Source of the DNA: a virus
Length of the DNA stretch: 51,705 nucleotides
Reading direction: 5' to 3' (one strand)
Virus record (IMG/VR): IMGVR_UViG_3300048834_000253
Coordinates: 1-51,705 of that record
Shown: positions 7,875-30,708 of the stretch, piece after piece
Layout of the letters: every line of letters starts with the position of its first letter
How positions within the stretch are numbered: position 1 is the stretch's first letter
Made by a program: the position numbers and the translations under genes
The notes under the pieces: generated by a model
The model's input: the letters and a program-made list of their open reading frames with translations, nothing else
The model's database searches: none
What the model was told of the DNA's origin: nothing

Positions 7875-8864
7875 TTAGGCGGTGACGGCGTGCTCGATGC
7901 GCGTCATCCATGCGTCGTTCAGGATCGCAGCGGCTGACCACATCTTGAAAGCCACATGCCCGCGCTGGCCCATGGGGTCAGAGTCCGAGGGCTTGGGGTT
8001 CACCACGATGGGAGTCAGTCCAGAGCCAGACGCCGACAGGTTCACCGTGGCGTAGCTGTCCTTGCCGACGATGAGCGACTGGTACACGTCCGCAGCCGAC
8101 CCGCCCAGCATTGCGCCCAGCGCACCACCGGCATTGGCCAGGGGCGTGTAGAGCGTGGAGCTGATGAACCGGATGTTCTCGAACGAACCAATTTCCGAAT
8201 CACACAGCGGCTTGAAGGTGCCGTAGTTCTGGATTCGGGTGTAGCCCGTCGGAATGTTGGTCGTGTTCTGCAGATCCATTTCCACGTTCGGATGCACAAA
8301 GCACACGTAGCACGCGGGAATGGGAGTGGTGCCCACGCCATCGGTGGCGTTGAGCATCATGGTCAGGGGCTTAGTGTCCTGATTCTTGAGCTGGCGGATT
8401 GCGCGGCGCAGAACAGTCGCCGTGATGGGGGTATTGACGTCCGTGCGCGCGGTGCCGTTGGAGTACAGCACCTGAGTGCCCGCCTTCAAGGCGTTGTACA
8501 TGATCAGCTCTTGCGTCTGGCCAGCCGTTTCGCCAAGCGAACCGCTCAGCTCGTTCAGTACCGGGTCTTCATGGGTGTCCATGATCACGTCGGTAATCTG
8601 CACGCGCTGGCCGTACTGCTCCAGGTTGGCGGTCACGTCAGTGGCGGCAATGTTGCCTTGCACTGGCGTCACACCTTCGGTCAGCGGAGTGGTGGTGGCG
8701 GCAAGTCGGCCGTAACGGCGCCACTTGACCACCTTGGTTTTGCCCTTGGGCACGGCGGTAACCACGGCGAATTTCGCCATGTTCAGGGAAGGCTGGGCAC
8801 GCTCCAGCATCTTGTCCACAGCGTAAGCTGCGGTACGGGGGGTGATATCACCGTAGACGGTCAT
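7875..8864 (-). CDS. Major capsid protein, N4 gp56 family
   Basis: This 329-residue protein starts MTVYGDITPRTAAYAVDKMLERAQP and resembles the N4 gp56 family of major capsid proteins, which have an HK97-type fold and build the icosahedral head. Family-like features are the N-terminal RAQP/L segment with the F.V..A.PKGKTK pattern, the TPLTEGVTP loop, the LEQYGQRVQITDVIMDTHEDPVL core and a basic TLRRAIRQLKNQ helix. Length fits the family. A good TAGGAG site precedes the start. It lies directly downstream of a scaffold-like gene, as usual. Confidence 0.9.
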   Translation of the reverse strand: MTVYGDITPRTAAYAVDKMLERAQPSLNMAKFAVVTAVPKGKTKVVKWRRYGRLAATTTPLTEGVTPVQGNIAATDVTANLEQYGQRVQITDVIMDTHEDPVLNELSGSLGETAGQTQELIMYNALKAGTQVLYSNGTARTDVNTPITATVLRRAIRQLKNQDTKPLTMMLNATDGVGTTPIPACYVCFVHPNVEMDLQNTTNIPTGYTRIQNYGTFKPLCDSEIGSFENIRFISSTLYTPLANAGGALGAMLGGSAADVYQSLIVGKDSYATVNLSASGSGLTPIVVNPKPSDSDPMGQRGHVAFKMWSAAAILNDAWMTRIEHAVTA

Positions 8865-8889: not shown

Positions 8890-9873
8890 TCAGGCTGCTG
8901 CCAGGCGCTTGCGTCGGAAGAAGTCCAGCGATGCCTCGAAGTCGTCTTCGGGTGGCATCCCGCCCTTGGCTCCGCTGTTGCGGGAGGGCAGGCCGACAGC
9001 GGCTTGCAGCCGTGCGGCGTTCGTGCTGGCCTTCTGCGCTGCGGGCGCTGCTGGCTGGTTGGGTGTTTGCGCAATCGATGGACGGCCCGACCGGCGCAGG
9101 TGTGCGTCGTAGGAATCCATCACTGCGATGGCTTCATCAGGGGTTTGGCCCCGGTAGAAAGCCACTTGGGTGGTCTGCGGTTGAGCCTTGATCCAAGCGC
9201 CGAATTCGGGGCTTTGAACCACGGCTGTGGCTGTGGGGTAGGTGGACTGGAACGTGCCCATTGCGGCCTCGTAGGCGGCGGTGCGTTGTTCCTGCGCCTT
9301 CTGCTGCTGCTCGGCCCGCAGCTCTTCAAGTGGTTCAACCACTTGGGCGGCGGCCTGTTTGGCAACATGGGCGGCTTTCGTCTCGATCTCGCGCATGGAC
9401 TCTTGCAGAGCCCCCACGATCCCCGACAACTCCGGAAAGTCTTTGAGCTTTTCAGACAGCTCGGCCAGCTTTGCAGCGGCACCCTCGACAACTGGCGTAC
9501 CTGTGGCAGGGGCCTGTTTCAGTCGGGCGTTCTCCTGCCTGATCTGCTCCAGTTGCGCGCGGGTTTCGTTCAGGTGACGATTGAGGTGCTTGACGCGGCC
9601 AATCTCGCTTTGCGCTCTGTGCAATTCCTCTTGGGTCTTGCGCAACGTCTCGGCGGGGTCTTCCTTGGCGGCAGGCTGCGATTCAGCGGCTGGGCTGTCT
9701 GCTGCTGGCGTTGTGCTGGCATCAGTGGGAGGATCGGTGGCAACCGGTGCGGCGGCGGGCTGATCCACTTGCGTGGTGGCCAGCGCTGCGTCTTGTGGTT
9801 CAGATTTCTCAGTGCGCAGTTCAGCCAAGGCTGCTGCCATCTGGTCTTCGTCGCTCAAGAGTTCAGTGCTCAT
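8890..9873 (-). CDS. Scaffolding protein
   Basis: This 327-residue protein is strongly charged, with an Ala/Pro-rich N-terminal third (residues 1-80) and a long coiled coil (about 85-150, RKTQEELHRAQSEIGRVKHLNR and following) and a basic C-terminus (FFRRKRLAAA). This is the layout of phage scaffolding proteins, which guide capsid assembly through a basic C-terminal helix and then leave the procapsid. It is directly upstream of the major capsid gene with a GAAGGA site before its ATG. No protease domain is seen. Confidence 0.8.
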   Translation of the reverse strand: MSTELLSDEDQMAAALAELRTEKSEPQDAALATTQVDQPAAAPVATDPPTDASTTPAADSPAAESQPAAKEDPAETLRKTQEELHRAQSEIGRVKHLNRHLNETRAQLEQIRQENARLKQAPATGTPVVEGAAAKLAELSEKLKDFPELSGIVGALQESMREIETKAAHVAKQAAAQVVEPLEELRAEQQQKAQEQRTAAYEAAMGTFQSTYPTATAVVQSPEFGAWIKAQPQTTQVAFYRGQTPDEAIAVMDSYDAHLRRSGRPSIAQTPNQPAAPAAQKASTNAARLQAAVGLPSRNSGAKGGMPPEDDFEASLDFFRRKRLAAA

Positions 9874-9910
9874 CGTTCCTTCGGCATGGCCCTTGTCGGG
9901 TCAGAGGCGG

Positions 9911-9941
9911 TTGACACCAGGCAAATCGCCTGTGAGGTCAA
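9911..9941. promoter_or_regulatory. Two-part inverted repeat upstream of scaffold gene
   Basis: TTGAC (9911-9915) pairs with GTCAA (9937-9941), and inside it CAGGC (9918-9922) pairs with GCCTG (9928-9932) around AAATC. It lies in the divergent gap between the scaffold gene and the moron. It could be an operator or an RNA hairpin in the scaffold 5' leader. The left arm also reads as a -35-like TTGACA, but no matching -10 is visible. Confidence 0.4.
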
Positions 9942-9972
9942 TGTCTTAGGAAGGAGTGCGCGCGGGGAGTGG

Positions 9973-9986
9973 CGGCATATATGCCG
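9973..9986. promoter_or_regulatory. Late-block palindrome, copy A (perfect)
   Basis: The site reads CGGCATATATGCCG, a perfect 14-bp palindrome. It lies in the divergent gap, 106 bp upstream of the scaffold start (minus) and about 36 bp upstream of the moron start (plus). Near-identical sites occur only at 19599 and 27038, also upstream of minus-strand late blocks, suggesting a shared regulator. Confidence 0.6.
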
Positions 9987-10021: not shown

Positions 10022-10600
10022 ATGCGTGCTTTAAGAATCGGCGGGTTGATATGTGCGGCTGCTTTGCTTGGGTGCGGCTCCGCGTCAGCTCAGTTGGCCG
10101 ATACTGTCTTTATCACGGTGCACAGCCAGCCTGAAGGCGCGTACATAACAGACATGCTGAAGCATGCGGGCGGCATAGCCCCGCAGGTCTACAGCTACCC
10201 TGCGTCACAGTTCAAAAAAGATGACAACGGTTGCATCTATACGTATGGATTTGACGCCCGTTGGGGAAGTGGGGCTGCAGCGTCGAGCACGAAGTCCATC
10301 CTCCTGTGCCCATCGGCATCAAAAGACCAGTTCTACGTAATCCTTAAACGCGATCCGTCCGCCCCTGGATTGGACAAGGATCTTCGTTTTTCCATGGAGC
10401 TCGCTGACCGCAAGCAGAACGCCGCCGCTCAAGTGCAAGCTGAAAAAGATCGCCGCGAAAACGCCATGATTGAAGGGCTTGCCGAAGGGTTCGCGGGGGC
10501 TATGGGTGCTAGGGCTGCAAGGCAGCCCGTGCAAGTTGCCCCTTTGCGCTGCACTTCCAAACGGACTATCAGCGGCTCCGTGGATACTGTGTGCGAATGA
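10022..10600 (+). CDS. Moron: exported protein or lipoprotein against the structural operon
   Basis: This 192-residue protein is read opposite to all surrounding structural genes. It starts at 10022 after GGAGG with 6-nt spacing. The N-terminus is a signal sequence: MRALR, then a hydrophobic core to LLGCGSASAQ. LLGC fits a lipobox (Cys about residue 18) and ASA/Q fits signal peptidase I, so lipoprotein or periplasmic protein are both possible. The rest has DNGCIYTYGFDARWGS and a charged helix (ELADRKQNAAAQVQAEKDRREN) and ends with two cysteines. I do not recognise the family. Such lone reversed genes in late regions are usually morons, expressed from the prophage and altering the host. Base composition appears lower in G+C than its neighbours. 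Confidence 0.75.
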   Translation: MRALRIGGLICAAALLGCGSASAQLADTVFITVHSQPEGAYITDMLKHAGGIAPQVYSYPASQFKKDDNGCIYTYGFDARWGSGAAASSTKSILLCPSASKDQFYVILKRDPSAPGLDKDLRFSMELADRKQNAAAQVQAEKDRRENAMIEGLAEGFAGAMGARAARQPVQVAPLRCTSKRTISGSVDTVCE

Positions 10601-10612
10601 CTGCATGCGCAG

Positions 10613-13600
10613 TTAGTTTGCCGATTTCTCCATCTCCATCACCTTGTCATTGAGCGCCCGCATGTAGGTCGTTCTCGCCGCGTCAATGCGCTTGAGGGCT
10701 TCCTTGTCGTTGATGCTCTCTGACGCCAGCTTGTTGAGCTTGGTGACATTGCTGCGCACCTCGTCGTTCAGCTCGTACAGCTTCACCAGCGGGTTATCGT
10801 CAATCAGCTTGCGCACCTCATCGCCCCGGCCCTCTTTGGACAGGCCCTTGAGCTGCGCTTCCAGCTTCTCGATCTTGCTGGAGTTCTTGAAGAACCGGCT
10901 GCGCTGCAGGTCTTGGTCTTCCACCTCGCCAGCGAATCGACTCCCCAGCGGAACCTCGCGCGCCTTCAGGCCTTCGCCCTGGGCGGTCAGCACCGATGCG
11001 TTCAGGATCTTTTCCAGCTCCCGGAACACGCCACCGCCCACCGTGGTGAAGACGTAGCGCACCTCTTCGGGTGAAGGGCTGGCAAGCCCTTGGGCAAAGT
11101 CGTTCCCACCAGTCAGGCTGTTGATGGCCTTGCTGATGCCGATGTACGCCTGGCCGGTGAACGACCGCTGCGTGCCCTCGCGGCCCATGGTGAAGCCGGG
11201 CCGGGTGTCCCACGGCATGCGCTCCTTACCGATGGGCTTGCCGGTAAAGTCCGTATTGGTGGCCATATCCACGATGGGATCAATCACAGTGGGCGAGATC
11301 GTCTTGAGCGCGCCTGCTCCAGTGAAGATGTTGCCGCCACCCAGGGGGTTGAACGACCCCGCCAGCTCGCCCAAGGCGTTAAAAGACTTCTCGCCCCAAT
11401 CCTTGCCACCGCTCATCAGCAATTCGGTGACCACGCGCCCGGTGTTGGGCAGCGCATTCAGGCCGAACTGCAACGGGATGGTGATGTACTGCTTGCCAGC
11501 CAGAGGAATGATGAAGGCGCGGGCCTTGACGAACTCGGGGATTTCATCGTCCTCATACCCGGCCATGGACAGCAGCAGCGCCTGAATCACGCCCAGGCTC
11601 AGGCCGCCGATCAAAATGCGCTTGCCCGCAGGCCCTTGCAGCGCCTTGAGCGTGCGCGCCGTCCCCTGCACCGATGCGTTGAAGAAGGCGAACAGCGGCC
11701 CCATCTCGCGCCCTGCCCGCCCCTTGCGGTTGAAGTCCAGCGTCAGCTCGCGCGCCATCCGGGCAGACTCGGCGCGGCTCATGCCCTTGTCCAGTGCAGC
11801 CTTGTACGCTGACAGACGCACACCGTTTTCCAACGTGGTGTTGAAGTCGTCCAGCAGGTCCAGCACCGCATGGGCAGCAGCGCCCGGCGTCAGCTTGCCA
11901 TCCTTACCCAACTTGTCCAATTCACTCTGCACGGCGTCGGCTCGCTTGTACGGGTCAATGAACAAATCGCGGTAGCCCGTGCGTCCGCCATCGTCCTGGA
12001 ACTGCTGCCACAGGTCCGACCATGGCGTGCGCTGCGCATCGCCCCTCAAGTCCCGCGCGATGCCAATCATTGCGGGGATGGAGTCGGACAGCACCCGCGC
12101 CTGTTTTCCGGCCAGGGCGGTGTCGGTCAGGTTGACCATCGCGCCGCCCACATCCCGCACGATGTTGACCATGCCGAATGCCGGGTTGTACTGCGTGTTG
12201 ATCGATGCAAAGTAGCGCGTGGCCTTGCCCACGATGCTGCCAGCCAGATCAAGCTGCCCCAGCACTCCATCCTGATTCTTCAGGTTGCGCACCAGTCGCA
12301 CCGCCCGCTCGTTGCTGGCGTTGAACAGAATCACACGATCCTCGCCGTTGACCTTGACCACCAGCGAATTGTCCAGCCGCTTGTACATTGGGTTGGGCCG
12401 GTCAACCACCTTGCCAGATACCGGCTCAACCCCGCGAATCGTGGGCACGCCCTGCATGCCTACCTCGGCTTCCATGGGGTCAACGCCCATCCTGACCAGT
12501 TCGTTCGCAATCTGGTCAGACGGCATGGATGGCCGAATGGTCGTCCACATTTCAGCGTTGGGGTTCGTCAGCGCCAGGCCGTACAGGCTCATGGCCACGC
12601 GGTTCTTTTCCGCCCGGGTAATGGCGGCTTCGCGCTGCATCAGGATGTGCGCCAGCATGTTGGTCACTTCGCCCGTGCTGCCGGTGGCCCGCTTGGATGC
12701 CGTCCCCGTCACGCTTACACCGGCCCCGATGGGGTGGCCCGGGGTTTCCATGGCCTCATCCTTGAACAGCGGCACGTAATGCTTGTACGCACCCGTCCAG
12801 GCGTCCACTGTCTCTTGCTTCTCCAGGCCCTCACGCACCAGCACTTCGCGTGTGCCCAGTGTCAAATCATCGACCCGCTTTGCCAGCAGCTCCAGCACCA
12901 GGCGCTTGCCCTGCGTCAGCGCTGCAATGTGGTCGCGCGCTGCTTGCGTGGTCATAAGCACGCCCTGGCTGTTGGTGCCTGCGCCGCCATCGGGCATCTC
13001 GTCGTTCACCTTGGCAATCTGCGCGTTGCGCTCGGGGGCGTGCCGGGCCAGCAGGTAATCCGACAGCTCATCCTGGCTGACGTTGTTCTTGGCCATCGAC
13101 TCCAGCAACGGCTTCACCTCGGCCGACAGGAACGACTCAGTGCGCCGCGCGATGCGTCCAGGCATCAGCGTTTCCGCCAGCCGGGCATCAAACCCTTCGG
13201 TGATCTGCTTGCCAGTCGCTGCAATAGCCTCTTGCACGCGCTTGAGGTCGATTCGCCCATCCTGCAGTTCGTAGATCAGCTTGTCGGTGCGGGTCGCTTG
13301 GGGAAGCTCCCACGGGTTGGAAGGGGCGAACAGGCCCGCTTGCGCGTTTGTGGGGATGGGGGGTGGGTTGTTGCCCGCTTTGCTGTAGAGCAGCCCAGGC
13401 ACATCCGTGCCCGCATGGTCGCGGGTAATCAGTGCGCGTTTGAGGGTTGAGACTCCGACTCCATGCGCCTCAAAGCCTCCGCGAGTGCTGGCGAGATAAC
13501 GTGCAAGTTCGGAATCCGACAGGCGATTGCCCTGAATGGCGGCTCCATTGCCCACGGCGTCAGCGTCTCGGGCTGGTGTGCCCACAACATCTTGTTCACG

Positions 13601-16600
13601 CCCGTCAAATCGTCGTGGATTTTTCTTGCCTGCTGCAAGTCGCATTTCAAGTTCTGCGAGATTACCAGCGCCGATTCCTCCCGATTCATTTGCACCAATT
13701 CGGCCATCCACGGGTGCGCCGTCGCCCAGTCTTTGCCCCTCTGGCTCCAGTACGGTGCCGCCTCTGGAGTAAACGTCCCCCGTGGCGGGGTCAATTTCAA
13801 GGAATTTGAATACAGGGATGCGCTCATTTACTTTCTCCAGTTCGGCTTGTGCGTAATTCAGCCATCCAGCACCCCGCGCCATACTCCGCGCATTGGCCCG
13901 TGCCACCGCAGCAATGTCGGCCACGGTCAGTTGGTCAGCCTTCAGCAGCACGCCCTTGCCAAACAACCATGCGCGCACAGCAGCCGTGAAGTCCTGCACC
14001 CACTTGGCTACCGATGGCGGCGAATTGGCGCGGTCGTTCTCGTACTCGGTGACGATGTAAGCCGCAGCTTCTTCACCGCTGGTTTCGCCCGAACGATCCA
14101 TGCGCGCCTGCACCCGCTGGATGAAGGCATTGCCACGGTCAGCACTCAGCAACTGAGCAGCCCGTTCAAACAGCGGCTGCAGCTTGCTGTCTGCGGCCAT
14201 GTGAATGCCCACCTCGTGCATCAGCGTGCCCGGTGCGGACTCGGCGGTCAGGTTGTCGGCAATCAGGAATGATTGGCCGGTCTGCGGGTCGAAAAAGCCC
14301 TCTATGGCGCCGTCTGCGCTGCGCTTGATGTCAAGGCTGTCTGCTGTGTCGCTTTGCGTGGCTGACAAAAGCGACTGCCTGATCGCCTCAGCATCCCCTC
14401 CCGTCTTGTCCGCCCTGGCCCGCGCTGCCGCCTCAATCGCCTGCTCCTGCGTCTGCGTCAGCGTGACAAGGCCCTTGGCTTCCAGCTGGCCCAGCAGCTT
14501 GCCGTAAGCCTTGGTGATAGCGGCGCGGATGGCGGCGGCGGGGGTGCGCATGGGTTGCACGGTGCGACTCATGGCAGCGCCTGCAGGCTTGATGCTGCTG
14601 GGCACCGCCTCGTCCACCAGGTACTGCAACGCCTGGCGCTTGGTGTCGAACCGGGTGTCGCCCCAAGGCTCGCCATCCTTGCCAAAGCGCGTCAGTTGCC
14701 AACGGCCTTGCTCACTGGCCGAAGGCGTCACGATCAACATGCGCCCATCGCTTGTGCGCGCCTCGACGGCAAACCCGCTGTCTGGTAGTTGGGCCAGCGC
14801 GTCCAGCATGGCAGCTTCTGCCGCCCGTCTGGCGTCGCCCACAGCGCTGAACTCTTCCGGGGTGACAGTGCCCGGCTCGGCGTCGTAAAGCGCATCTGCC
14901 CTGCGGCTAGCCTCTTCCATGGCGGCTGCTGCACTGCTGATGGCAGGTTGGGCGCGGCTGAAGCGCACATCGCCATTGCGCGCATTAAAGCGCTGACTCA
15001 GCGGGATCACTGCACCGTCATCATCGTGCGTCACGGCATCCAGCAGTTTGCGGTTGTTCTTGGTGTTCTTGTAGCCGTAGCTCTGTCCGTCGTCATAGCC
15101 GAACTCGGCCACGCTGTTGCCGTCCCAGTACAAGTTCTTGGCGGAGGCTGGGAGCGAAATGATGCGGTATCCACCAGGTATGCTTTCCCCTTCCAACTTG
15201 GCGTACTCAAGGGACGGGGTCACCCAGTCGCCATTGCGAATGGCGCCATCCTTCACGGTTTTGGGGATGGCCCGGTACACCACCATGGCCACCGAACCCG
15301 GGCTCTTGCCTGCCGCCTTGCGCGCATCCGCTGAGCGCATGGCAGCCACCACAGCGCGGTGCGCCGCGGCTTCTTCGGGCGTGCTCACGTACCACTGCGG
15401 GTGCGTCCAGTAATCATCAGGCACAAGCCCGTTGTCACGCAGCTCATCCAGCCGGACGCCATCGTTTTCTGCGCTGGGCGCTTCGTGCTGCATGCGGTAA
15501 TCGCTGCCCACGTATCCCGCCTCGGCAGCAGCCTCATTCACCAATCGCTGCGCAGTAGCCATATCGCCGCGCTCTACAGCGGCAAGGTACTCAGCATCCT
15601 TGTTGGGCTTCGCCTTCCGGCTGAACATCAGCCCGCCCTGCCCGCGATCCGCCATCGTGGCGTTGTACAGCGCAATCGCTTTCTGATTGATCTTGTCGAA
15701 TGCGACGTGCTCCAGCATCTCAGTGGGCGCGCGCTCAATTGACGTGGTGCCACGCGAGCGAATCACAGAGTAAAGCTGCGCGCCGATCCTGTCGCCGCCG
15801 AAGTCCTCTACGGTGACGATGTACTCTCCGCTGGCGTAACGCGCGTATGGCGTAGCCTCTTGGCGTTTGGTCATATCGCTCTTGACCATCTCGCGGGCGA
15901 TCACCTTGCCGGACGCGGGAAGTTGCGCCTCTTGCTGTCGTGCAGGCGCATCAAACATGCCGCCCTGCCCAGTCAGGCTATCCAGCGGGTCTTGCCCCAA
16001 CTCGAACTCATCAGCGGCGCGCACGCTGGCCTGGGCAATGCGCTTGCGGTCTTCGTCCTTCGATGCTTGCACGTCGGCAGCGCGCTTGGCTGCGGCTTCT
16101 GCCTTGGCGGCCTGCTCTTGCGATTCTTGGAGTGCCGCTGCTTCTGCGGGCGTTTGTGATGCCAGCTCCAGCGGTTCAGGCGCTACGTTTTCAGTAGCTG
16201 CTTGCGCTTGCTGGTCAAGCGCTACGGGCTGATTTAACCCTTGGGCTGCGGGGCCTGTTGCTGCTCCGCTTTGGCTTTGGCCTTCGCTGCCAGCAGGCGT
16301 GCGACGATCTCCATTGCTTCGGGTGATGGCTGTCTCAAGGGCGGATTTTGCGGCTGCATAGTAGTCCTGCTCGGTTGCGTTGATGGTCTGCTCATGGGCG
16401 TCGAGCATGATGGATTCGGCGTCGATGCCCAGCGCATTCGCCATTTCAAGCAATGCGCGCACCTCGGCCTTGATGGCGTCTGGTGCTGCATCGTACCCGC
16501 TGGATTCGAGCATGTCATCCGAGAAATCATCCAGTGCGACAGGTTGCGTATCGCTCCATGGGTCGCCATCGGATGCCGATTCTTCCTGCGCTGCAAGGTA

Positions 16601-19531
16601 GTCATCAAACTGGGCATTGGCTTCTGCTTGTGCAATTCGTTCAATGCCGTCTGCTGTGTACTGCGGGCGGGATATGCTCGTCTTGATGAGGGCATACGCA
16701 TCATTGAGCGTTGCGCCTTCCCCCAAATAGCCGTCAGCGATCAGCTTTTGGGTTGCCTGCTCCATCGACAAGCCACGGCCACGGCCCGCGAACAGGCGCC
16801 GGTTGCCAACGCGCGGGTTGTTGTCAATGCCCAGATCGGATGCCGCGATGGCGCTCAACCCGCCTTCTGCCGCGATGAACTCGTGCGCGGCCAGTGGGGC
16901 GCCTGCCGTGCCGGTTTTGGGCTGCGACAGTCGGCGTGCAGCTTTTGCCTCTGCTGCCAGTTGCGCGGGCGTTTTCTCGGCCAGGGCATACCCGCCTTCG
17001 ACCGGCACCACACGCATCATGGGCTGCAGCTTCTTGGCGTCGCCTGCTGCTTTGCGGGTCTTGAAGGGCTTCCCGCCTTCGCTCAGCGGCGTCTGTTCGC
17101 GCCCCAAGCGCACAGACGCCGCTATCGGCTGGCCCGCAGCTTGCGCCGCTCCTTGCGCGCTTGGCGTTTGGCTTGCTTGCGTTCCAGGTTGCGCAGGTTG
17201 GGGCACATTGGCGGGGACTCCTTGGGCGGTGGGCGGGCTGCTGAGACTGGCCAAATGCTGACCAATGGGGACAGCCTCGTATTTGGCAGTGTTGATTTTG
17301 TCGGCCACGGATTTTTGCGATGTTTCCATCACGACTGCCCCCGTGGATTTATCGCGAAGCACCCAGCTTGTCGCTGGTTGGCGCGTGGCGGGGTCGATGA
17401 CGGGCGCTGCACCTACCCCAGCGGCTTGAGTTGCGGCAACTCCCGCACCGGAAAGGTCGGCGGCAGGTACTGGCGCATTAACTCCCGCGACGTCAGCCGC
17501 TTGGGCACTGGTGGCTTTGGTCTGCTGCTGGGTGTCCGATGGCGTGCGTTGTGGTGCATTTGCTGCCTCCTGGGGTGAAGATCGGGCGCGCAAGGCTTGC
17601 AACTCGGCGGCCAGCCCGCCGGTCACCGGAACACTGCCGGGCTGCGCCTGTGGCGTGGTGCTTCGCTGAGTGAAGTCAGGCGCGCTGCGCGCACGCAGGG
17701 CCTCCAGTTCGACGGCAAGCCCGGTCGCTTGTGGTTGTGCTGCCTCGGCCTGCAGGATCTGGGCGGCAACATCGGTCTGGGCAGACTGCGGCGACTGGGG
17801 TGCAACCGGGGCCGACGGGACAATAGGGGCTTGGGGCGTCGTGGGTTGGTCTTCCACGCGCGGCGCCCGGCTGCCATACGCTTCCTGCATGCCAGCCACC
17901 TTGCCCATCACCAGACCGGCAGCCGCACCCTGCCCGTAGGCCTCGCCAGCCATCTCGGATAGATTGACCCGCTGGCCTGCGCGCGACAGTTCCAGACCCT
18001 TGGCAATCGCGCCGGTGCCCTCTTCGACGCCTTCCGACACAGACTCCAATGCACCCGCCTGGCTGCCCTTGACGATCAATTCGACCGCCTTGGAAACCAA
18101 CCCGCCCTCCATCCCCTTGCCCATGGGGCGCGTCAGCAGGGATGTGGACGCCACGGCAGCCTTTGCGGCCGCGCCCTTGAGCGACGGGGGCAAGAACATT
18201 TTTTCAATGGCATCACCGCCAGGAACCAGCTTCATCGACAGCACCGACGCGCCCGTAGCCATCAGCAGCGCCCGGTTCGCCGCAGCGCCCGCCAAAATCT
18301 CCTTGGCCTGCTGCGCGCCGTGCTGTGCCTCCAGGTCCTTCCATTCGGGCTCTGACTTGAACGCCTCCACCGGGAGCTTGCTCAGTTCCTCGTAGGTTTC
18401 GCTCGCCACCGATGCGCCCTGAATACCCGCAGCCGTACCCGTGGCCGTGGCGCGCGCCAGCACCCCGGCGCCATTCTTGGCCGTCACTGCAACGCGCGCT
18501 GCCAGCTCAGACCCCGTGCCCAGCGCCTTGGCAAACGCGGCATTACCAACCGCATTGGCTGCAGCACCCGCACCACGACCGACCACGCCCCCCGCAAACA
18601 TGCCCGGCGCACTGCGCGCCAGCGTGTCAAACAACAGCGTCGGGTCTTTCAGCGTCTCAATGCCGCCGACTGCCAGCTTTTCGCGCCACCCCTCGGCGGT
18701 ACTCAGTTTGTCCTGCAGGGCTTTCCCCCGCGCCTGAATCTCGGATGATTTCTGGTCTTGCAGGACGTCCTGCGTGCCACGGATGGCCTTCAGGTAGCCC
18801 GTGTCCCAATCGCCCGTCACTGCGGAATAGGCCACGCCCGGCAGGCTGCCAACATCCAGCAGGCCCTGCGCCAGCGATTTGGTGGTGTCTCCAAACGCCT
18901 CCCCCCATGTGCGCTCAGGGGTCGCCCCCGGCTGCGCCTTCGCCGCCTCGGGCGCTGCTGCATTCTTGGGCGGCAGCTCTACAGGCGGCATGGGCGCAGG
19001 CGCGCGCAACTTCAACTCGTCGGCCGCTGCAAACACGGTCTTGAGATAGCCCTGGGTTTCCTTGGGCGCGAGCGATTGCCAATCCTCGGCGTCGTAGGCC
19101 TTGCGGTTTTCGCCCCAGTTGTAGGCCGCCACAGCCTTGCCGTAGTCGCCGCCGAACTTCTCCAGATTAGCGCGCATGTAGGCCGCAGCCCCGAAAATGC
19201 TCTCCACCGGGTCCAGCGGATTGATGCCAAAGCGCTCGGCCGTGCCGGGCATGAACTGCATCAAGCCTGCTGCACCAGTGCGGCTCTTGACCTGGCCGCT
19301 GATCACGTCGGGGCGAAACCGGCTTTCGGCAAACGCCATGGCCCGCAGCACGTCGGGGTCAACCCCGTATTCATCACCAGCCGCCTGAAAAGCTGCGTCG
19401 AACTCCTGGGGAACGGCAAAGCGCGAACCTGCTGGCGCTGGCTCAAACGCCAAAGGCTCCCGCTCAGGTGCCGATTCATCCGGCAGGGCGTCAAGGTCGA
19501 TGCCGCGAGAGGCAAGCTGGAAGAGATTCAT
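10613..19531 (-). CDS. Giant polyvalent virion protein: transglycosylase, ART-like, zincin-like, LPD38
   Basis: This 2972-residue protein takes up 17% of the genome. In order: SLT-type lytic transglycosylase (about 41-165; catalytic Glu69 in AFAES, GAAGLMQFMPGTAERFG, AYNWGE); Ala/Pro/Gln-rich linkers with a duplicated GLAxELxALRARS (about 620-665); several polyvalent-associated segments; an ADP-ribosyltransferase-like part (about 1370-1475) with Arg1420 in VYRAIP, GDWVTPSLEYAKLEG and AEFGYDDG as R-[ST]-E-like elements; a zincin-like part with GTLMHEVGIHM (His1772, Glu1773, His1777) and EEAAAYIVTEYE; then a long helical part ending in an LPD38-like segment (about 2595-2780). This matches the phage polyvalent proteins described by Iyer, Aravind and colleagues, thought to be packaged and injected. 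The transglycosylase would help pass the cell wall. The start lacks a clear Shine-Dalgarno sequence. Confidence 0.85.
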   Translation of the reverse strand: MNLFQLASRGIDLDALPDESAPEREPLAFEPAPAGSRFAVPQEFDAAFQAAGDEYGVDPDVLRAMAFAESRFRPDVISGQVKSRTGAAGLMQFMPGTAERFGINPLDPVESIFGAAAYMRANLEKFGGDYGKAVAAYNWGENRKAYDAEDWQSLAPKETQGYLKTVFAAADELKLRAPAPMPPVELPPKNAAAPEAAKAQPGATPERTWGEAFGDTTKSLAQGLLDVGSLPGVAYSAVTGDWDTGYLKAIRGTQDVLQDQKSSEIQARGKALQDKLSTAEGWREKLAVGGIETLKDPTLLFDTLARSAPGMFAGGVVGRGAGAAANAVGNAAFAKALGTGSELAARVAVTAKNGAGVLARATATGTAAGIQGASVASETYEELSKLPVEAFKSEPEWKDLEAQHGAQQAKEILAGAAANRALLMATGASVLSMKLVPGGDAIEKMFLPPSLKGAAAKAAVASTSLLTRPMGKGMEGGLVSKAVELIVKGSQAGALESVSEGVEEGTGAIAKGLELSRAGQRVNLSEMAGEAYGQGAAAGLVMGKVAGMQEAYGSRAPRVEDQPTTPQAPIVPSAPVAPQSPQSAQTDVAAQILQAEAAQPQATGLAVELEALRARSAPDFTQRSTTPQAQPGSVPVTGGLAAELQALRARSSPQEAANAPQRTPSDTQQQTKATSAQAADVAGVNAPVPAADLSGAGVAATQAAGVGAAPVIDPATRQPATSWVLRDKSTGAVVMETSQKSVADKINTAKYEAVPIGQHLASLSSPPTAQGVPANVPQPAQPGTQASQTPSAQGAAQAAGQPIAASVRLGREQTPLSEGGKPFKTRKAAGDAKKLQPMMRVVPVEGGYALAEKTPAQLAAEAKAARRLSQPKTGTAGAPLAAHEFIAAEGGLSAIAASDLGIDNNPRVGNRRLFAGRGRGLSMEQATQKLIADGYLGEGATLNDAYALIKTSISRPQYTADGIERIAQAEANAQFDDYLAAQEESASDGDPWSDTQPVALDDFSDDMLESSGYDAAPDAIKAEVRALLEMANALGIDAESIMLDAHEQTINATEQDYYAAAKSALETAITRSNGDRRTPAGSEGQSQSGAATGPAAQGLNQPVALDQQAQAATENVAPEPLELASQTPAEAAALQESQEQAAKAEAAAKRAADVQASKDEDRKRIAQASVRAADEFELGQDPLDSLTGQGGMFDAPARQQEAQLPASGKVIAREMVKSDMTKRQEATPYARYASGEYIVTVEDFGGDRIGAQLYSVIRSRGTTSIERAPTEMLEHVAFDKINQKAIALYNATMADRGQGGLMFSRKAKPNKDAEYLAAVERGDMATAQRLVNEAAAEAGYVGSDYRMQHEAPSAENDGVRLDELRDNGLVPDDYWTHPQWYVSTPEEAAAHRAVVAAMRSADARKAAGKSPGSVAMVVYRAIPKTVKDGAIRNGDWVTPSLEYAKLEGESIPGGYRIISLPASAKNLYWDGNSVAEFGYDDGQSYGYKNTKNNRKLLDAVTHDDDGAVIPLSQRFNARNGDVRFSRAQPAISSAAAAMEEASRRADALYDAEPGTVTPEEFSAVGDARRAAEAAMLDALAQLPDSGFAVEARTSDGRMLIVTPSASEQGRWQLTRFGKDGEPWGDTRFDTKRQALQYLVDEAVPSSIKPAGAAMSRTVQPMRTPAAAIRAAITKAYGKLLGQLEAKGLVTLTQTQEQAIEAAARARADKTGGDAEAIRQSLLSATQSDTADSLDIKRSADGAIEGFFDPQTGQSFLIADNLTAESAPGTLMHEVGIHMAADSKLQPLFERAAQLLSADRGNAFIQRVQARMDRSGETSGEEAAAYIVTEYENDRANSPPSVAKWVQDFTAAVRAWLFGKGVLLKADQLTVADIAAVARANARSMARGAGWLNYAQAELEKVNERIPVFKFLEIDPATGDVYSRGGTVLEPEGQRLGDGAPVDGRIGANESGGIGAGNLAELEMRLAAGKKNPRRFDGREQDVVGTPARDADAVGNGAAIQGNRLSDSELARYLASTRGGFEAHGVGVSTLKRALITRDHAGTDVPGLLYSKAGNNPPPIPTNAQAGLFAPSNPWELPQATRTDKLIYELQDGRIDLKRVQEAIAATGKQITEGFDARLAETLMPGRIARRTESFLSAEVKPLLESMAKNNVSQDELSDYLLARHAPERNAQIAKVNDEMPDGGAGTNSQGVLMTTQAARDHIAALTQGKRLVLELLAKRVDDLTLGTREVLVREGLEKQETVDAWTGAYKHYVPLFKDEAMETPGHPIGAGVSVTGTASKRATGSTGEVTNMLAHILMQREAAITRAEKNRVAMSLYGLALTNPNAEMWTTIRPSMPSDQIANELVRMGVDPMEAEVGMQGVPTIRGVEPVSGKVVDRPNPMYKRLDNSLVVKVNGEDRVILFNASNERAVRLVRNLKNQDGVLGQLDLAGSIVGKATRYFASINTQYNPAFGMVNIVRDVGGAMVNLTDTALAGKQARVLSDSIPAMIGIARDLRGDAQRTPWSDLWQQFQDDGGRTGYRDLFIDPYKRADAVQSELDKLGKDGKLTPGAAAHAVLDLLDDFNTTLENGVRLSAYKAALDKGMSRAESARMARELTLDFNRKGRAGREMGPLFAFFNASVQGTARTLKALQGPAGKRILIGGLSLGVIQALLLSMAGYEDDEIPEFVKARAFIIPLAGKQYITIPLQFGLNALPNTGRVVTELLMSGGKDWGEKSFNALGELAGSFNPLGGGNIFTGAGALKTISPTVIDPIVDMATNTDFTGKPIGKERMPWDTRPGFTMGREGTQRSFTGQAYIGISKAINSLTGGNDFAQGLASPSPEEVRYVFTTVGGGVFRELEKILNASVLTAQGEGLKAREVPLGSRFAGEVEDQDLQRSRFFKNSSKIEKLEAQLKGLSKEGRGDEVRKLIDDNPLVKLYELNDEVRSNVTKLNKLASESINDKEALKRIDAARTTYMRALNDKVMEMEKSAN

Positions 19532-19598
19532 GCAGAGGCCCGGGTTGATGGTGGCGCGTGTGCCACTGTCGCCCGTTGCCCCTGTTTGTCACAGATCA

Positions 19599-19610
19599 GG
19601 CATATATGCC
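19599..19610. promoter_or_regulatory. Late-block palindrome, copy B
   Basis: GGCATATATGCC is a perfect 12-bp palindrome between the stop of the 20646 gene and the giant gene, about 70 bp upstream of the giant gene start. It equals copy A except for one flanking base (13 of 14 positions). Confidence 0.6.
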
Positions 19611-19614
19611 GGAA

Positions 19615-24530: not shown

Positions 24531-24764
24531 TTAATACCCCGTTCTTGTAGGTTTTGCGCTCTGCTGGCCGTGAATCTTGATGCGGTCGGGAATCGACAAG
24601 AGCCCATACATCTCTGTCATTGCAGCCTGGGCCTGACGAATCTCTGTATCGCTGGAACGTGGGTTGATGCACACCGTGGTCAATTGACCAATGCGCTCTT
24701 GTGCGTAGGCTTCCACTCCGCGCCACACTGCGGTCTGCGTGTTGATCAGGTCTTGCCAGCTCAT
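24531..24764 (-). CDS. Small protein following the portal gene
   Basis: This 77-residue protein (MSWQDLINTQTAVWRGVEAYAQERIGQL) is mostly helical with a basic end (KPTRTGY). The start overlaps the portal stop in an ATGA, and the stop TAA abuts the next gene. No recognised family. Tight coupling to the portal suggests a head or portal accessory role. Confidence 0.6.
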   Translation of the reverse strand: MSWQDLINTQTAVWRGVEAYAQERIGQLTTVCINPRSSDTEIRQAQAAMTEMYGLLSIPDRIKIHGQQSAKPTRTGY

Positions 24765-26998
24765 ACGCCTCTCCCGGTTTGTGCTGCGAACTGCATCTCG
24801 GCGTTGAGCATCTGGGCCTTGGTGTCGCGGTCGGCTTGCTTGTCGGCCAGCACCGCCTGGGTCTTCTGTGCCTCAAACCCGTACTTGGCCATGGCCTGCT
24901 CCTGGGTCATGTTGGTTTTTGCTGCTGTATCGGCAATCTCCAACTGCATGCGCGCTTGCATGATCTGCTGATTCGCTGCAATCTCTTCCCGGCGAAGCTG
25001 CATATTTTCCTCATGGATCTTCGCGTCAAGATCCATGCGCGCCTTATCCAGCTCCAGCTTCGCCATGGCCGGGTCTTGCTTGGGGCCTTGCTGCTGCTCG
25101 GCAGCTTTCATCTTCTCGATCTCTTGCTCAGACGGCAGCACGCGGTCGGGGTCGAGCTTGAAAGCCCGGGCAAACTCGCGCATCATGCTCATCTGGTTGC
25201 TCAGTGGCAGGCCCATGGCCTGGGCGGTCTGCATGAACTGCTGCAAGCGCTGTGACTGGCCCTCCAGCTCTACCAGTGCGGCGATGCCCATGGCGCGCAC
25301 TCGACTGTCGCCCTTGATCTCTTCCTTCTCGCTGTACTGCATGTTCCAGTCGAAAAAGCGCGTGATCAAGGGGGCAACGATGTCGTCATCCCAGTTGCGC
25401 ACGGCCCGGCGAACCCACAGATTCGCGGCGGTGTAGGCAATGCTTGCCCCGGTGGCGCTCTGCATGTAGTTGGGCGCCTCAGTGCCTTGCATGAACGCAG
25501 GCAACGTGCCGACTTCCTCGATGAGTTGCTTGCTCATGCCAAAGATGGCCTGAAACTCTTCTAACCTCGAATCAATGGCTATGAACTGGATTCCCTGTCG
25601 CGCATCGGCGCCTGGGCGTTTGTTGCGCCAGAACTTGCCTGGGGCGAGTCTCCAAGACCCATCCACCGGCTCAATGGATTGATCATCCGTCACCACTTGG
25701 GGCAGCACGCAAAGGCCCATGTTGTCGTGCATGGCGCGGAATGCGCTGTTCGCGCTCTCTTGGTTGTCGCGTACCTCGTAGGGCATGCCGAATCCGAAAA
25801 TGCTGGCCTCGTCCATTTGCCAGGTGAACACGCTGTAGGGGTGCTCGTTGCTGTCCAGTGGGTTCAGAGCGGCTTTGAGCACTTCCCCTTGGGAGCCAAA
25901 CCAGACGATGCCGGTATAGGTCTTGAGCGGGTCATCCTCCACGTCACAGCCGCAGTCCATCAGTTCCTGCGCGGTGATAGGGCCGTGGTACTCCCACACC
26001 TCATAGCGCCGATCTTTGGCCCCACTGGTGCCGCTGATGGCCCGCAGGCGTTCGCGGTAGTTGTTGCTGGGCGTGGTGGGGTCGGTAGACAGCATGGAGC
26101 GCAGTGCATCCACGTCCACGTCGGGCATATCCTGCAGGTCAGCCGCTTCCTGCTTTGTGAGGTAGTGGCGCTCAAACACGAACTCCGCCTGGCGGATGTG
26201 CGTGGCGCTCATGTCCGGGAAGAAGTTCCACAAATCCACCCGCGCCGCCTCGGGCAGTGGCTTGCGCTCCAGGCGCATCACAAAGGTGCCGTCCTGCTGA
26301 ATCCAGCGCTTGGTGGTGCGGAACATCGGCACCGGGCCTTTGATGACACCAGTTCCATAGAGCACAGCGTCATGAATCACATCCCGCGCGTGGCGTGGGT
26401 AGCTGCACTCTGCAAGTTGGTCATCAATCTCGCGCTGCATGGCGTCGCAGCGCTTCTTGGCCTCTTCCACAATCTGCGCAATGGACTGCTGCATGGCGCC
26501 TGCCGGGATGGTCTGGCCGTCTGGCGTCTGAATCGGGGTGTCGGGTGGCAGCTTCTCGGCCAGTTGCATGGCTTCCTGCAGGTCTGGGACGGGTGTAGGC
26601 TCAATGACGTAGTTGCGCTCGTCACTCGGAAACAGCATGTCAAACAGCCGCGCCTCGACCAATCCACACAGTCGGCGGGTCAGCGGGACAAAGATGCGAC
26701 TGCCGTACTCGCTTTCGTCACCGAACGTTCCCGGGTCGTACTGCCCGTTGAACTGGCGCACGTCCTTGTACCAGCGTTCCTCTATCGCCTGGCGCTGCTG
26801 AACCTGCTCATTGGCCAGGCCCAGCAACCGGTGCCCCAGCGCTGCCACGCGGCCTTTGCGCGCCTCTGCCTCTTGTCGCTCCTGCTGCGGGTCAACCTCG
26901 GCTCCCAGCATCTCGGCCATCTCATCAACGCCCACGGCGCCGCTGGCCACCATCTCGGCAATGCTCGCGGCCAGGTCGTCGTCGGGTCTTTGATTCAT
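24761..26998 (-). CDS. Portal protein (podovirus head-tail connector)
   Basis: This 745-residue protein lies directly downstream of the large terminase, as portals do. Portal-like content includes FVPLTRRLCGLVEARLFDMLFPSD early on, the basic wing and stem region (SANSAFRAMHDNMGLCVLPQV), and a long C-terminal Gln/Glu/Lys-rich coiled coil (about 650-740) that could form the barrel projecting into the head. The length suits portals of large podoviruses. It would form the ring through which DNA enters and leaves. The ATG has no Shine-Dalgarno sequence and directly follows a hairpin (see separate entry). Confidence 0.8.
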   Translation of the reverse strand: MNQRPDDDLAASIAEMVASGAVGVDEMAEMLGAEVDPQQERQEAEARKGRVAALGHRLLGLANEQVQQRQAIEERWYKDVRQFNGQYDPGTFGDESEYGSRIFVPLTRRLCGLVEARLFDMLFPSDERNYVIEPTPVPDLQEAMQLAEKLPPDTPIQTPDGQTIPAGAMQQSIAQIVEEAKKRCDAMQREIDDQLAECSYPRHARDVIHDAVLYGTGVIKGPVPMFRTTKRWIQQDGTFVMRLERKPLPEAARVDLWNFFPDMSATHIRQAEFVFERHYLTKQEAADLQDMPDVDVDALRSMLSTDPTTPSNNYRERLRAISGTSGAKDRRYEVWEYHGPITAQELMDCGCDVEDDPLKTYTGIVWFGSQGEVLKAALNPLDSNEHPYSVFTWQMDEASIFGFGMPYEVRDNQESANSAFRAMHDNMGLCVLPQVVTDDQSIEPVDGSWRLAPGKFWRNKRPGADARQGIQFIAIDSRLEEFQAIFGMSKQLIEEVGTLPAFMQGTEAPNYMQSATGASIAYTAANLWVRRAVRNWDDDIVAPLITRFFDWNMQYSEKEEIKGDSRVRAMGIAALVELEGQSQRLQQFMQTAQAMGLPLSNQMSMMREFARAFKLDPDRVLPSEQEIEKMKAAEQQQGPKQDPAMAKLELDKARMDLDAKIHEENMQLRREEIAANQQIMQARMQLEIADTAAKTNMTQEQAMAKYGFEAQKTQAVLADKQADRDTKAQMLNAEMQFAAQTGRGV

Positions 26999-26999
26999 G

Positions 27000-27015
27000 C
27001 CCGGAGTGTTCCGGG
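27000..27015 (-). promoter_or_regulatory. Hairpin abutting the portal start codon
   Basis: CCCGGA and TCCGGG (6-bp stem, 4-nt loop) end two bases before the portal ATG. In the mRNA the hairpin fills the place where a ribosome-binding site would be. It may restrict initiation so that portal is made in small amounts. Confidence 0.45.
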
Positions 27016-27037
27016 CGGGGGTCTAGCGGGCTATTCC

Positions 27038-27051
27038 CGGCATATATGCGG
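27038..27051. promoter_or_regulatory. Late-block palindrome, copy C
   Basis: CGGCATATATGCGG matches copy A at 13 of 14 positions. It lies in the 54-bp gap between terminase and portal genes, about 40 bp upstream of the portal start. Confidence 0.55.
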
Positions 27052-28516: not shown

Positions 28517-28971
28517 CAGCTTGCTTTCGCCTTCTCTCGGATTGTCTGCACCCTGTCCAGCGCGTCCAGCATTGCCATGGCCTTCTCGGGCGTCATGTTG
28601 CCCATGGCCTTCTTGAGCGGGTCTGTCACATCCTCGACCTTGGCAACATAGAACCCTCGAGCCTTGCCCCTACTGATCTCCGCATTGATGGCGGCGCTGA
28701 ACTGCCCGGCTTGCCGCGCTTCCTCTCGCAGGGCCTCAAGGTCTGCCATGTGTTGATCCAGGCTCAAAACCGCTGCGGATGCCGCAGAGTTGCGCAACTC
28801 CTTGATTCTTGCGGCTACCTTGGGGTTTTCGATCAATTCATGCGCACATCGGTGAACTGTCGCATCTTTTGTGCCTGACTTGACGTTGTAGACCTTCCGA
28901 TATGCGTCGCTGCATCTCTGATCAGCCTTCAGCATCTCCTGGCAAAACAGCTCTTGTTTTTGCGTCAGCAC
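28516..28971 (-). CDS. Terminase small subunit
   Basis: This 151-residue protein has the small-terminase pattern: an N-terminal helix-turn-helix (LTQKQELFCQEMLKADQRCSDAYRKVY), ARIKELR at about residue 55, and a helical oligomerisation part with PLKKAMGNMTPEKAMAMLDAL. It would recognise the packaging start site and activate TerL. The start is GTG, overlapping the end of the GIY-YIG gene by 7 bp. Confidence 0.85.
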   Translation of the reverse strand: MLTQKQELFCQEMLKADQRCSDAYRKVYNVKSGTKDATVHRCAHELIENPKVAARIKELRNSAASAAVLSLDQHMADLEALREEARQAGQFSAAINAEISRGKARGFYVAKVEDVTDPLKKAMGNMTPEKAMAMLDALDRVQTIREKAKAS

Positions 28972-29594
28972 ATCAACCCCCTTGATTTGAAGTTGTCGAC
29001 TTGCAGGTGAATCACGTCTTCGATCCCATCCAGCATTTGGTTATAAAACCCTACTGGACCGCCGAAATGCTTTTCCGCCAGCGCCAACTGGTCTTCTCTG
29101 GCATTCCTGATCCAGTCATCAAAAGGTCTGATCGAGCCAATGACCTGCGTGATCCTCTTCAGAAACTCGCCCACCTCATCACGCGGGCGGCGCTCAGAAC
29201 TGCCGAGCAAGATGTTCGTCAGTTGCGACTTCCATGCCGAAATCAACCGCCTTTCGATACCCAGCGCTTCGCCTTCTGAATCGCACACGACGAATACCAG
29301 AGGCTTCACGGTCAACCCGGCTGCGCGTATCTCCAAGATGCGCTCTGATTTTGGGTGGCCACGCTCCCGGGGGGCTTGAGCACATCTGTTGTGGTTGAAC
29401 ATCCGATCTCCAAGTCCCTTCCCTACATAGAAGATGGCACCGTCTCGTGGGTCCACCAGCACGTAGACGTAATACTGGCCTGCTGGCGGCTTGTCGTGCA
29501 GCGTCAGACCGGCCAACGTGCAGGCGTCGCTGTGGCTCTTGCCCTGCGCCACAAGCTGGGCGAAGTGCTCCTGCTGGCTGGTCAGTGGCTTCAT
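28965..29594 (-). CDS. GIY-YIG nuclease with terminase-small-subunit-like N-terminal helix-turn-helix
   Basis: This 209-residue protein has a GIY-YIG-type domain from about residue 35: YYVYVLVDPRDGAIFYVGKG, then Arg in GDRMFNHNR and Glu in GEALGIERRLI. Such nucleases cut DNA and are often homing endonucleases. Residues 1-30 (LTSQQEHFAQLVAQGKSHSD) strongly resemble the first helix-turn-helix of the small terminase encoded immediately downstream (LTQKQELFCQEMLKADQRCSD). The ATG at 29594 overlaps the previous stop and was preferred over an upstream in-frame start. The fusion suggests that the nuclease gene invaded or duplicated the start of a terminase gene. It may act near the packaging site. 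Confidence 0.8.
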   Translation of the reverse strand: MKPLTSQQEHFAQLVAQGKSHSDACTLAGLTLHDKPPAGQYYVYVLVDPRDGAIFYVGKGLGDRMFNHNRCAQAPRERGHPKSERILEIRAAGLTVKPLVFVVCDSEGEALGIERRLISAWKSQLTNILLGSSERRPRDEVGEFLKRITQVIGSIRPFDDWIRNAREDQLALAEKHFGGPVGFYNQMLDGIEDVIHLQVDNFKSRGLMC

Positions 29595-29833
29595 GCTGCA
29601 GCCTCCCAATGGATGCAGCCGAACTTAGGGCCGACATAGACGCCTGACAAAAACCCCTCTTGATCCCACGAAGCGATTCGATCAATGTCTACTTTCAAAT
29701 CATCAAAAGCCCGGTCATTTGAATCTATAGCAAGTGCGCACTCCCCGGTGTATTGGTGGGCAGTCTCGTAAATTGCATTTTTGAAACGCGCCACATGGGG
29801 CGTGTAGTGCTTGCATGCATCACAGGTTTTCAT
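29591..29833 (-). CDS. Small Cys-rich protein, unknown function
   Basis: This 80-residue protein starts MKTCDACKHYTPHVARFKNAIYE, with CxxCxxY and later Cys (GECAL, FGCIHWE), the arrangement of small phage metal-binding proteins. Overlaps with both neighbours (ATGA). Metal binding is inferred from the cysteines. Confidence 0.65.
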   Translation of the reverse strand: MKTCDACKHYTPHVARFKNAIYETAHQYTGECALAIDSNDRAFDDLKVDIDRIASWDQEGFLSGVYVGPKFGCIHWEAAA

Positions 29834-30090
29834 TGCCCTGCTCCTTGCAGTACGGCCATTCCTTTGTCGCCGATCTGCAGAACCAGTCGCGAGACGTGCA
29901 GCGGGTCGTCGTCGTAGATAGCACGCCAGGCATCACCGGGGTCGCTGTGGCCTTTTAGACGCACCGCCGTGAAGGTCTGGCCGCTGACCGGATGCCACAT
30001 GCGGTCGCCGTGGTGAATGGGGTTGCCGTTGAAGTCTGGCCATGGGGCCAGATCAGCCGGGTCCAGCAGCTTGTTGGTATCTCGTCTCAT
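29830..30090 (-). CDS. Small protein, unknown function
   Basis: This 86-residue protein (MRRDTNKLLDPADLAPWPDFNG) contains GNPIHHGDRMWHPVSGQTFTAVRL, a beta-type segment common in accessory phage proteins that describe no known enzyme. Both ends overlap neighbours by ATGA, so it is translated with them. Confidence 0.6.
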   Translation of the reverse strand: MRRDTNKLLDPADLAPWPDFNGNPIHHGDRMWHPVSGQTFTAVRLKGHSDPGDAWRAIYDDDPLHVSRLVLQIGDKGMAVLQGAGQ

Positions 30091-30383
30091 TGCCCCCTCC
30101 TTACCAGTTCTTCCATATTTCCAATCACCCGCAGCCTATCCATGTCATGCATGCACTCAGCCCGCAGCCAGTCGGACGGGTATAGCACTTGCACAGCGCT
30201 GACAGCCACGTAGGGCACATGCATGCGGGCGGCAGTCAGGAGCGCGCAGGCACTTCCAAGGGGGTGAAGGTCTCCCGGCAGGTACACATCGCCCGATTCG
30301 CTGATGCCAGCGTGTAGCCCTGGCTGAATCCCTGCGCCTTTGATAGCCAGGATGATGAGGTCTTCGCTTGCTTCGGTTTCCAT
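30087..30383 (-). CDS. Small protein, unknown function
   Basis: This 98-residue protein starts METEASEDLIILAIKGAGIQPG at 30383, after AAAGGAG. It has a central hydrophobic LGSACALLTAARMHVPYVAVSAVQVL segment and a C-terminal helix with MHDMDRLRVIGNMEELVRR. It could be cytoplasmic, as the hydrophobic part is short. No family recognised. Confidence 0.6.
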   Translation of the reverse strand: METEASEDLIILAIKGAGIQPGLHAGISESGDVYLPGDLHPLGSACALLTAARMHVPYVAVSAVQVLYPSDWLRAECMHDMDRLRVIGNMEELVRRGQ

Positions 30384-30393
30384 GGTGACTCCT

Positions 30394-30708
30394 TTACCGG
30401 GTAAACGCCAATGCTCTGCGGGCATCCATCTCGGACACCACGATCACCTTGGGCTCTTTTTGCTTCTTTGCCATGCTGTAGCGCTTCACGAACCTGCGGC
30501 CTCTGGCGCTTGATGCGGGGCCAAGAGCAGACTTCACAGCACCAGAGTCGCGCAGCTTGGACAAGCAGCTACTGATTTCGGCGTGCATGGTTTTGGGCAA
30601 ATCCAGGGCGGCGCTGATCTGGCCCAGCGTCAGCGACTCCCCTGCTTTGTCATCCAGCAGCTTTTCGATTCGCGCCTTCAAGCCTGGTTGGTTTTCCTGT
30701 GCTGTCAT
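30394..30708 (-). CDS. Winged-helix DNA-binding protein, candidate late regulator
   Basis: This 104-residue protein contains a winged helix-turn-helix: KARIEKLLDDKAGESLTLGQISAALDLP (helices 1-2), EISSCLSKLRDSGAVKSAL (recognition helix) and a basic wing GRRFVKRYSMAKKQKEPK. It probably binds DNA. It lies at the end of the nin-like region, where lambda keeps its late antiterminator Q, and is the best candidate in this operon for controlling the three late-block palindromes; that link is inference only. Confidence 0.65.
   Translation of the reverse strand: MTAQENQPGLKARIEKLLDDKAGESLTLGQISAALDLPKTMHAEISSCLSKLRDSGAVKSALGPASSARGRRFVKRYSMAKKQKEPKVIVVSEMDARRALAFTR

Follow-up and report, generated by a model that had tools for sequence, protein, structure and literature searches.

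A palindromic site shared by three predicted late promoters in a lineage of Acidovorax prophages

Late-gene activation in phages

The closest described systems for switching on phage late genes follow several plans. In phage lambda, Q acts at one promoter through antitermination. The C protein of phage Mu is a phage activator, and its dyad site lies just 5' of weak sigma70 late promoters. In phage P2, four late promoters share the sequence TGT-N12-ACA, which is read by one small zinc-finger activator, Ogr (PMC3931495). The present analysis concerns IMG/VR virus record IMGVR_UViG_3300048834_000253, positions 1 to 51,705 (the window, meaning the whole stretch of DNA analysed), in which a 14-bp palindrome occurs three times upstream of minus-strand late genes. 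The palindrome is likely to be the binding site of a phage late activator which, with a -10 element at a fixed distance, would make three coordinated sigma70-type promoters, serving the portal, giant-protein and scaffold-capsid genes.

Three copies of the palindrome

The core of the palindrome, GCATATATGC, is present in exactly three copies in the 51,705 bases, where a first-order Markov model expects 0.022 (P for three or more ~2e-6), and among the 14 perfect 12-bp palindromes of the window it is the only one that is repeated. A fourth match, at 35758, needs two mismatches, and such matches occur at chance level. The sites and the genes that follow them, with terminase, portal and major head protein assigned by PHROGs, are as follows.

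9973-9986, minus strand: predicted palindromic activator site of the scaffold-capsid promoter, CGGCATATATGCCG; composite score 37.5
19598-19611, minus strand: predicted palindromic activator site of the giant-protein promoter, AGGCATATATGCCG; composite score 33.2
27038-27051, minus strand: predicted palindromic activator site of the portal promoter, CGGCATATATGCGG; composite score 32.6; immediately 3' of the terL stop
8890-9873, minus strand: scaffold-like gene, predicted target of late promoter 1; label inferred from its position before the major head gene
7875-8864, minus strand: major head protein gene, after the scaffold-like gene (PHROG 1357)
10613-19531, minus strand: giant protein gene, 2972 amino acids, predicted target of late promoter 2 (an open reading frame, ORF, of the window)
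24761-26998, minus strand: portal gene, predicted target of late promoter 3 (PHROGs)

The first-pass annotation had reported these three sites as the only occurrences and had placed them upstream of scaffold-capsid, giant protein and portal. Both statements hold, as the window contains no other copy of the core and the next minus-strand genes are those at 8890-9873, 10613-19531 and 24761-26998. The description of the sites as intergenic stands in part: all three lie between genes, but site 1 is also situated 36 bases 5' of a plus-strand ORF (10022-10600). Chance repetition, to which short sites are in principle open because repeated 10-12-mers do occur, had been discounted from the outset and has a negligible probability; the P value given above speaks against it, and it is already refuted by the conservation of the sites at equivalent places in relatives, described below.

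Promoter architecture

Sites were oriented towards their late gene and lined up by the palindrome, and 23 non-redundant sites were kept at a 60% identity cut. A -10-like hexamer, N-A-N-N-N-T, stands on the gene side of all 23, at an offset of 38 or 39 from the first base of the palindrome and chiefly in the form GACATT, GACAGT, AACACT or CAGAAT; the next unrelated offset accounts for at most 5 of the 23. Every site has A at -11 and T at -7, which none of 20,000 shuffles of the downstream bases equalled (maximum 8), and the rule is followed by 13 of the 13 sites that are less than 45% identical downstream (shuffle maximum 6). The 29-site alignment places a hexamer of the type NACANT at +39 to +45, counting from the 10-mer's first base, with T at +16 in 20 of the 29 sites and A or C at +51 in 28. 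At the -35 position, given a 17-bp spacer, T is enriched. With the -10 hexamer starting 38 or 39 bases from the palindrome's first base and a T marking the -35, the midpoint of the palindrome falls near -46 in promoters of the sigma70 type whose -35 is poor, which, judged from the alignment, is activator-site architecture. The arrangement is that of a class II-like sigma70 promoter, in which the site stands by the -35 at a fixed distance from the -10 with its centre near -46, and the -35 is weak or degenerate, the strong enrichment here being for its first T alone. A promoter scan around site 1 returned no consensus promoter. The elements in the window are listed below.

9963-9968, minus strand: -35 position TCCCCG, 17-bp spacer (site alignment)
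9940-9945, minus strand: -10 hexamer GACATT (site alignment and composite scan)
19588-19593, minus strand: -35 position TGTGAC (site alignment)
19565-19570, minus strand: -10 hexamer GACAGT (site alignment and composite scan)
27028-27033, minus strand: -35 position TAGCCC (site alignment)
27005-27010, minus strand: -10 hexamer AACACT (site alignment and composite scan)

This layout also bears on the sense in which the site might act. An operator through which the late genes are repressed during lysogeny or the early phase would share the dyad symmetry, which fits any dimeric regulator, and could draw on the closeness of site 1 to the start of the plus-strand ORF. The site lies upstream of the -35, however, and not over the core promoter, its distance from the -10 is rigid, and the degenerate -35 resembles that of activator-dependent promoters, so repression is considered quite unlikely. 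The first-pass annotation had allowed for either an operator or an activator site of a late regulator; the evidence favours the activator site, conserved upstream of portal and scaffold, with a fixed -10 pointing at the late gene.

Leave-one-out composite scores range from 21.6 to 37.2, against a best match of 16.7 in four Markov-generated copies of the window that served as the control. At the three window sites, all of them minus-strand composites, partner scores are +10 to +14 on the side of the late minus-strand gene and -10 to -12 on the other. A composite scan of the window gave no further site above the control (best other score 13.7 vs a control maximum of 16.7). Held-out sites with a -10 carry GACAGT, GACAAT, GAGAGT, CAGAGT or, with a spacing one base longer, CACAGT; the other held-out sites score clearly negative and are background matches.

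It could also be supposed that the palindrome acts as RNA, as a hairpin or terminator ending the upstream gene. At site 1 the sequence CGGCA-UAUA-UGCCG folds, and several copies follow immediately after the terL stop. Against this, the outer stem pair is broken at site 3 and in several relatives, sites 2 and 3 do not form the hairpin in their best fold, no U-tract follows the palindrome, and the rigid -10 distance would be left unexplained. Rfam has no family at or near the three sites, and an RNA role is rated highly improbable.

Conservation and specificity

Relatives of the portal protein were gathered from IMG/VR and bacterial genomes, and Acidovorax makes up most of the named hosts among them. 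Where the portal is 57-82% identical, the core GCATWWATGC recurs upstream of portal, mostly within about 15 bases past the terL stop. Other contigs and prophages also carry it 5' of their scaffold gene, and there a conserved leader comes after it. Counting the motif in related phages, as the first-pass annotation had proposed, thus found the same places occupied upstream of portal and scaffold. In portal relatives at ~30-34% identity, the palindrome was not found. Copies within genes had been named in advance as a sign against a regulatory site; none occurs in the window, but the relatives L040, L053 and L037 have one in the 3' end of the upstream ORF, and these copies keep the -10 hexamer at the correct distance. 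In two relatives (L046:14175-14235 and L061 near 4112), a hairpin resembling a terminator, with a T-run, can be made out by eye directly upstream of the late site, which suggests separate transcription units there.

Each Acidovorax genome of ~7 Mb has only 8-10 copies of GCATWWATGC, many of which are prophage late-gene sites. The exact composite, GCATATATGCC-N27/28-NACANTG, was found in one of 401 host-family genomes, one that carries the prophage and the partner gene described below. The partner gene is present in two genomes of that sample; the second was missed by the exact pattern because its spacing is 38 bases with a different hexamer. These counts are pertinent to the proposal that a host regulator binds the palindrome and ties late transcription to the state of the host. 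The promoters necessarily rely on the RNA polymerase of the host, and a single genus of host dominates the matches, yet the only genome with the exact composite is one bearing the prophage, and the remaining host palindromes are without a -10. There is thus no sign of a host regulon, and a host-encoded binder is very unlikely.

Among 2.9 million viral contigs, the exact composite recovered known members of the lineage and one new scaffold promoter (L127). The further matches lack late-gene homology, and one sits in a distant terL contig; most come from contigs richer in AT and are ascribed to chance. In the literature containing GCATATATGC, none concerned a phage late promoter.

Predicted transcription starts and leaders

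The spacing from the -10 predicts where late transcripts would begin.

9933, minus strand: predicted transcription start for scaffold-capsid, 60-nucleotide leader with a hairpin at the start
19558, minus strand: predicted transcription start for the giant protein, 27-nucleotide leader
26998, minus strand: predicted transcription start for portal, at the A of the ATG, giving a leaderless mRNA

Six of the 23 sites have an ATG at the predicted +1 or +2 (binomial P ~1e-5); in one of the six, the portal site of L017, it opens a short frame only, with the portal start ~20 bases downstream. A coincidence of predicted start and ATG like that of the window was observed in L009, L010, L018 and L031 (portal) and in L017 (giant). 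Such coincidences suggest leaderless late mRNAs. Gene starts that were left out of the derivation of the spacing rule agree with it and thereby lend it independent support; the rule predicts a leaderless portal mRNA in the branch of the window, and in other branches a leader of ~20-60 nucleotides or somewhat longer.

Scaffold leaders have a clear hairpin from the predicted start (e.g. CGGGCGATGTGCCCG), followed in several members by ACCGCCTCTG. The hairpin is conserved in the window (9873-9933, minus strand), L046:14235, L055:4870 and L082:4336, and has no Rfam match. Outside the scaffold leaders, a hairpin at the 5' end, where transcription is predicted to begin, does not amount to an independent signal.

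Candidate regulator and partner

Comparison of every ORF of the window with the relatives left only two non-structural genes common to all sampled motif-bearing relatives.

30394-30708, minus strand: candidate late activator, winged-helix protein, 104 amino acids (co-occurrence, AlphaFold, Foldseek)
30087-30425, minus strand: partner protein, 112 amino acids, no known family or fold match (co-occurrence)

The two genes overlap in the window and adjoin each other in relatives. The winged-helix gene lies upstream at every partner locus whose contig extends far enough, L012 included, and beside the partner gene in all eight host-genome copies. In the distant portal relatives without the motif, neither gene was found. 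The 30394-30708 product, encoded by one of these two genes, had been named as a possible ligand in the first-pass annotation. The 36664 product, the other ligand suggested there, is conserved in no relative and was rejected.

AlphaFold models the 30394-30708 product as a winged helix, with pLDDT (predicted local distance difference test) values of about 85-91 across the core. The model contains a three-helix helix-turn-helix core and a beta wing (H10-20, H28-34, H39-54, E58-64, E73-79), and Foldseek places it near regulators of the MarR and ArsR types and near other winged helices. The sole family hint is a weak match to PHROG 2440, "transcriptional regulator" (E 0.018). Searches of PHROGs, Pfam, NCBIfam, PDB sequences and 50,697 phage records gave no confident match for either product. 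The palindrome is probably bound by this small winged-helix protein, of a family that the libraries do not recognise. In one lineage, the sites at both the portal and scaffold promoters are TTAA-centred, and the winged-helix protein lacks a four-residue turn between the recognition helix and the wing, a pairing suggestive of co-evolution of site and protein.

The late promoters could be as described with the palindrome bound instead by the partner, by a complex of both proteins, or by another phage protein. The partner is equally conserved and always adjacent, and its confident AlphaFold model (order E, E, E, H, E, H, H) has no meaningful match among solved structures. This alternative merits some weight but is unlikely, for the partner has no recognisable DNA-binding fold, whereas the 104-amino-acid protein is a predicted winged helix.

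Several points count against the late-activator reading. The spacing takes two values, 38 and 39. Because some of the contigs are fragmentary, "all relatives" covers only those in which the region is present, and the winged-helix gene of L012 was missed by pairwise search and recovered by inspection and profile only. The TTAA covariation is essentially that of one lineage. The winged-helix assignment itself derives from co-occurrence and fold, and since co-occurrence is just as good for the partner, the regulator could be one of the two proteins or both.

Neighbouring features

The gene order around the pair is NinB 32350, NinG 31512, HNH 30755, winged helix 30394 and TerS 28516. At 28965-29609 (minus strand), a GIY-YIG nuclease-like protein has an N-terminus that by eye resembles that of the adjoining small terminase, and it is possibly a nuclease inserted into a terS-type gene. 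The O-like replication gene 35335-36297 contains, within its 5' end, an Rfam int-alpA RNA (36216-36285, minus strand, 53.7 bits). The plus-strand ORF 10022-10600, between the giant and scaffold genes and opposite to them, encodes 192 amino acids, has GGAGG as its ribosome site and opens like a signal peptide; it begins 36 bases from late site 1 and is possibly a lysogenic conversion gene.

Proposed mechanism and comparison with known systems

Induction would be followed by read-through of the nin-like early operon, yielding the 30394-30708 and 30087-30425 products, as the position and overlap of their genes suggest. A winged-helix dimer would then bind GCAT-WW-ATGC, centred near -46 and just 5' of the -35, and recruit host sigma70 RNA polymerase to promoters in which comparison finds a degenerate -35, usually with the first T alone kept, and a -10 of type NACANT. 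Transcription starting ~7 bases past the -10 would produce a leaderless portal mRNA, a giant-protein mRNA with a 27-nucleotide leader and a hairpin-headed scaffold leader.

A whole lineage of Acidovorax prophages thus appears to use an undescribed late-gene switch. A broader and tentative proposal, at somewhat below even chances, is that the place of Q in this Acidovorax-type lineage is taken by a two-protein switch of an undescribed family, made up of the winged helix and an obligate partner whose fold matches no solved one, and that this switch drives at least three promoters that share the -46 palindrome, some of them firing leaderless structural-gene mRNAs. The result is a complete and testable late-gene circuit, with regulator candidates, sites, -10 elements and predicted starts, in a lineage without a close cultured relative among the 50,697 phage records. 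Two unannotated protein families are named, a leaderless mRNA is predicted for a virion structural gene, and the composite motif is usable for locating late operons in other prophages of the lineage.

Among known systems, position recalls lambda Q and P22 gp23, as the gene pair follows nin-type genes and precedes the terminase; neither 30394 nor 30087 matches a known Q family in Pfam, PHROGs or NCBIfam. Lambda Q works at a single promoter; here at least three are involved, every one of them with a separate site 5' of its -35, and this layout argues for control of initiation. Mu C shares the plan of activator and dyad site; its site and fold differ from those here. With MarR/ArsR-type regulators the general fold is shared in Foldseek (ZitR, SmtB and CzrA among others; lowest E about 2e-3), but the sequences show no significant relationship (Pfam E 0.05 or worse), and no metal- or ligand-sensing domain was recognised. 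The closest logic is that of P2 Ogr and P4 delta, with several separate late promoters sharing an activator site in one temperate phage. Unlike Ogr, the 104-amino-acid protein is a predicted winged helix with an additional conserved partner; its sequence lacks the Ogr zinc-binding motif CX2CX22CX4C (as defined in PMC3931495), and the conserved site is GCATWWATGC, not TGT-N12-ACA. Because the Ogr motif and site are both absent and no sequence relationship to Q is seen, the system is treated as a new form of a described type of control, in which a phage activates several late promoters.
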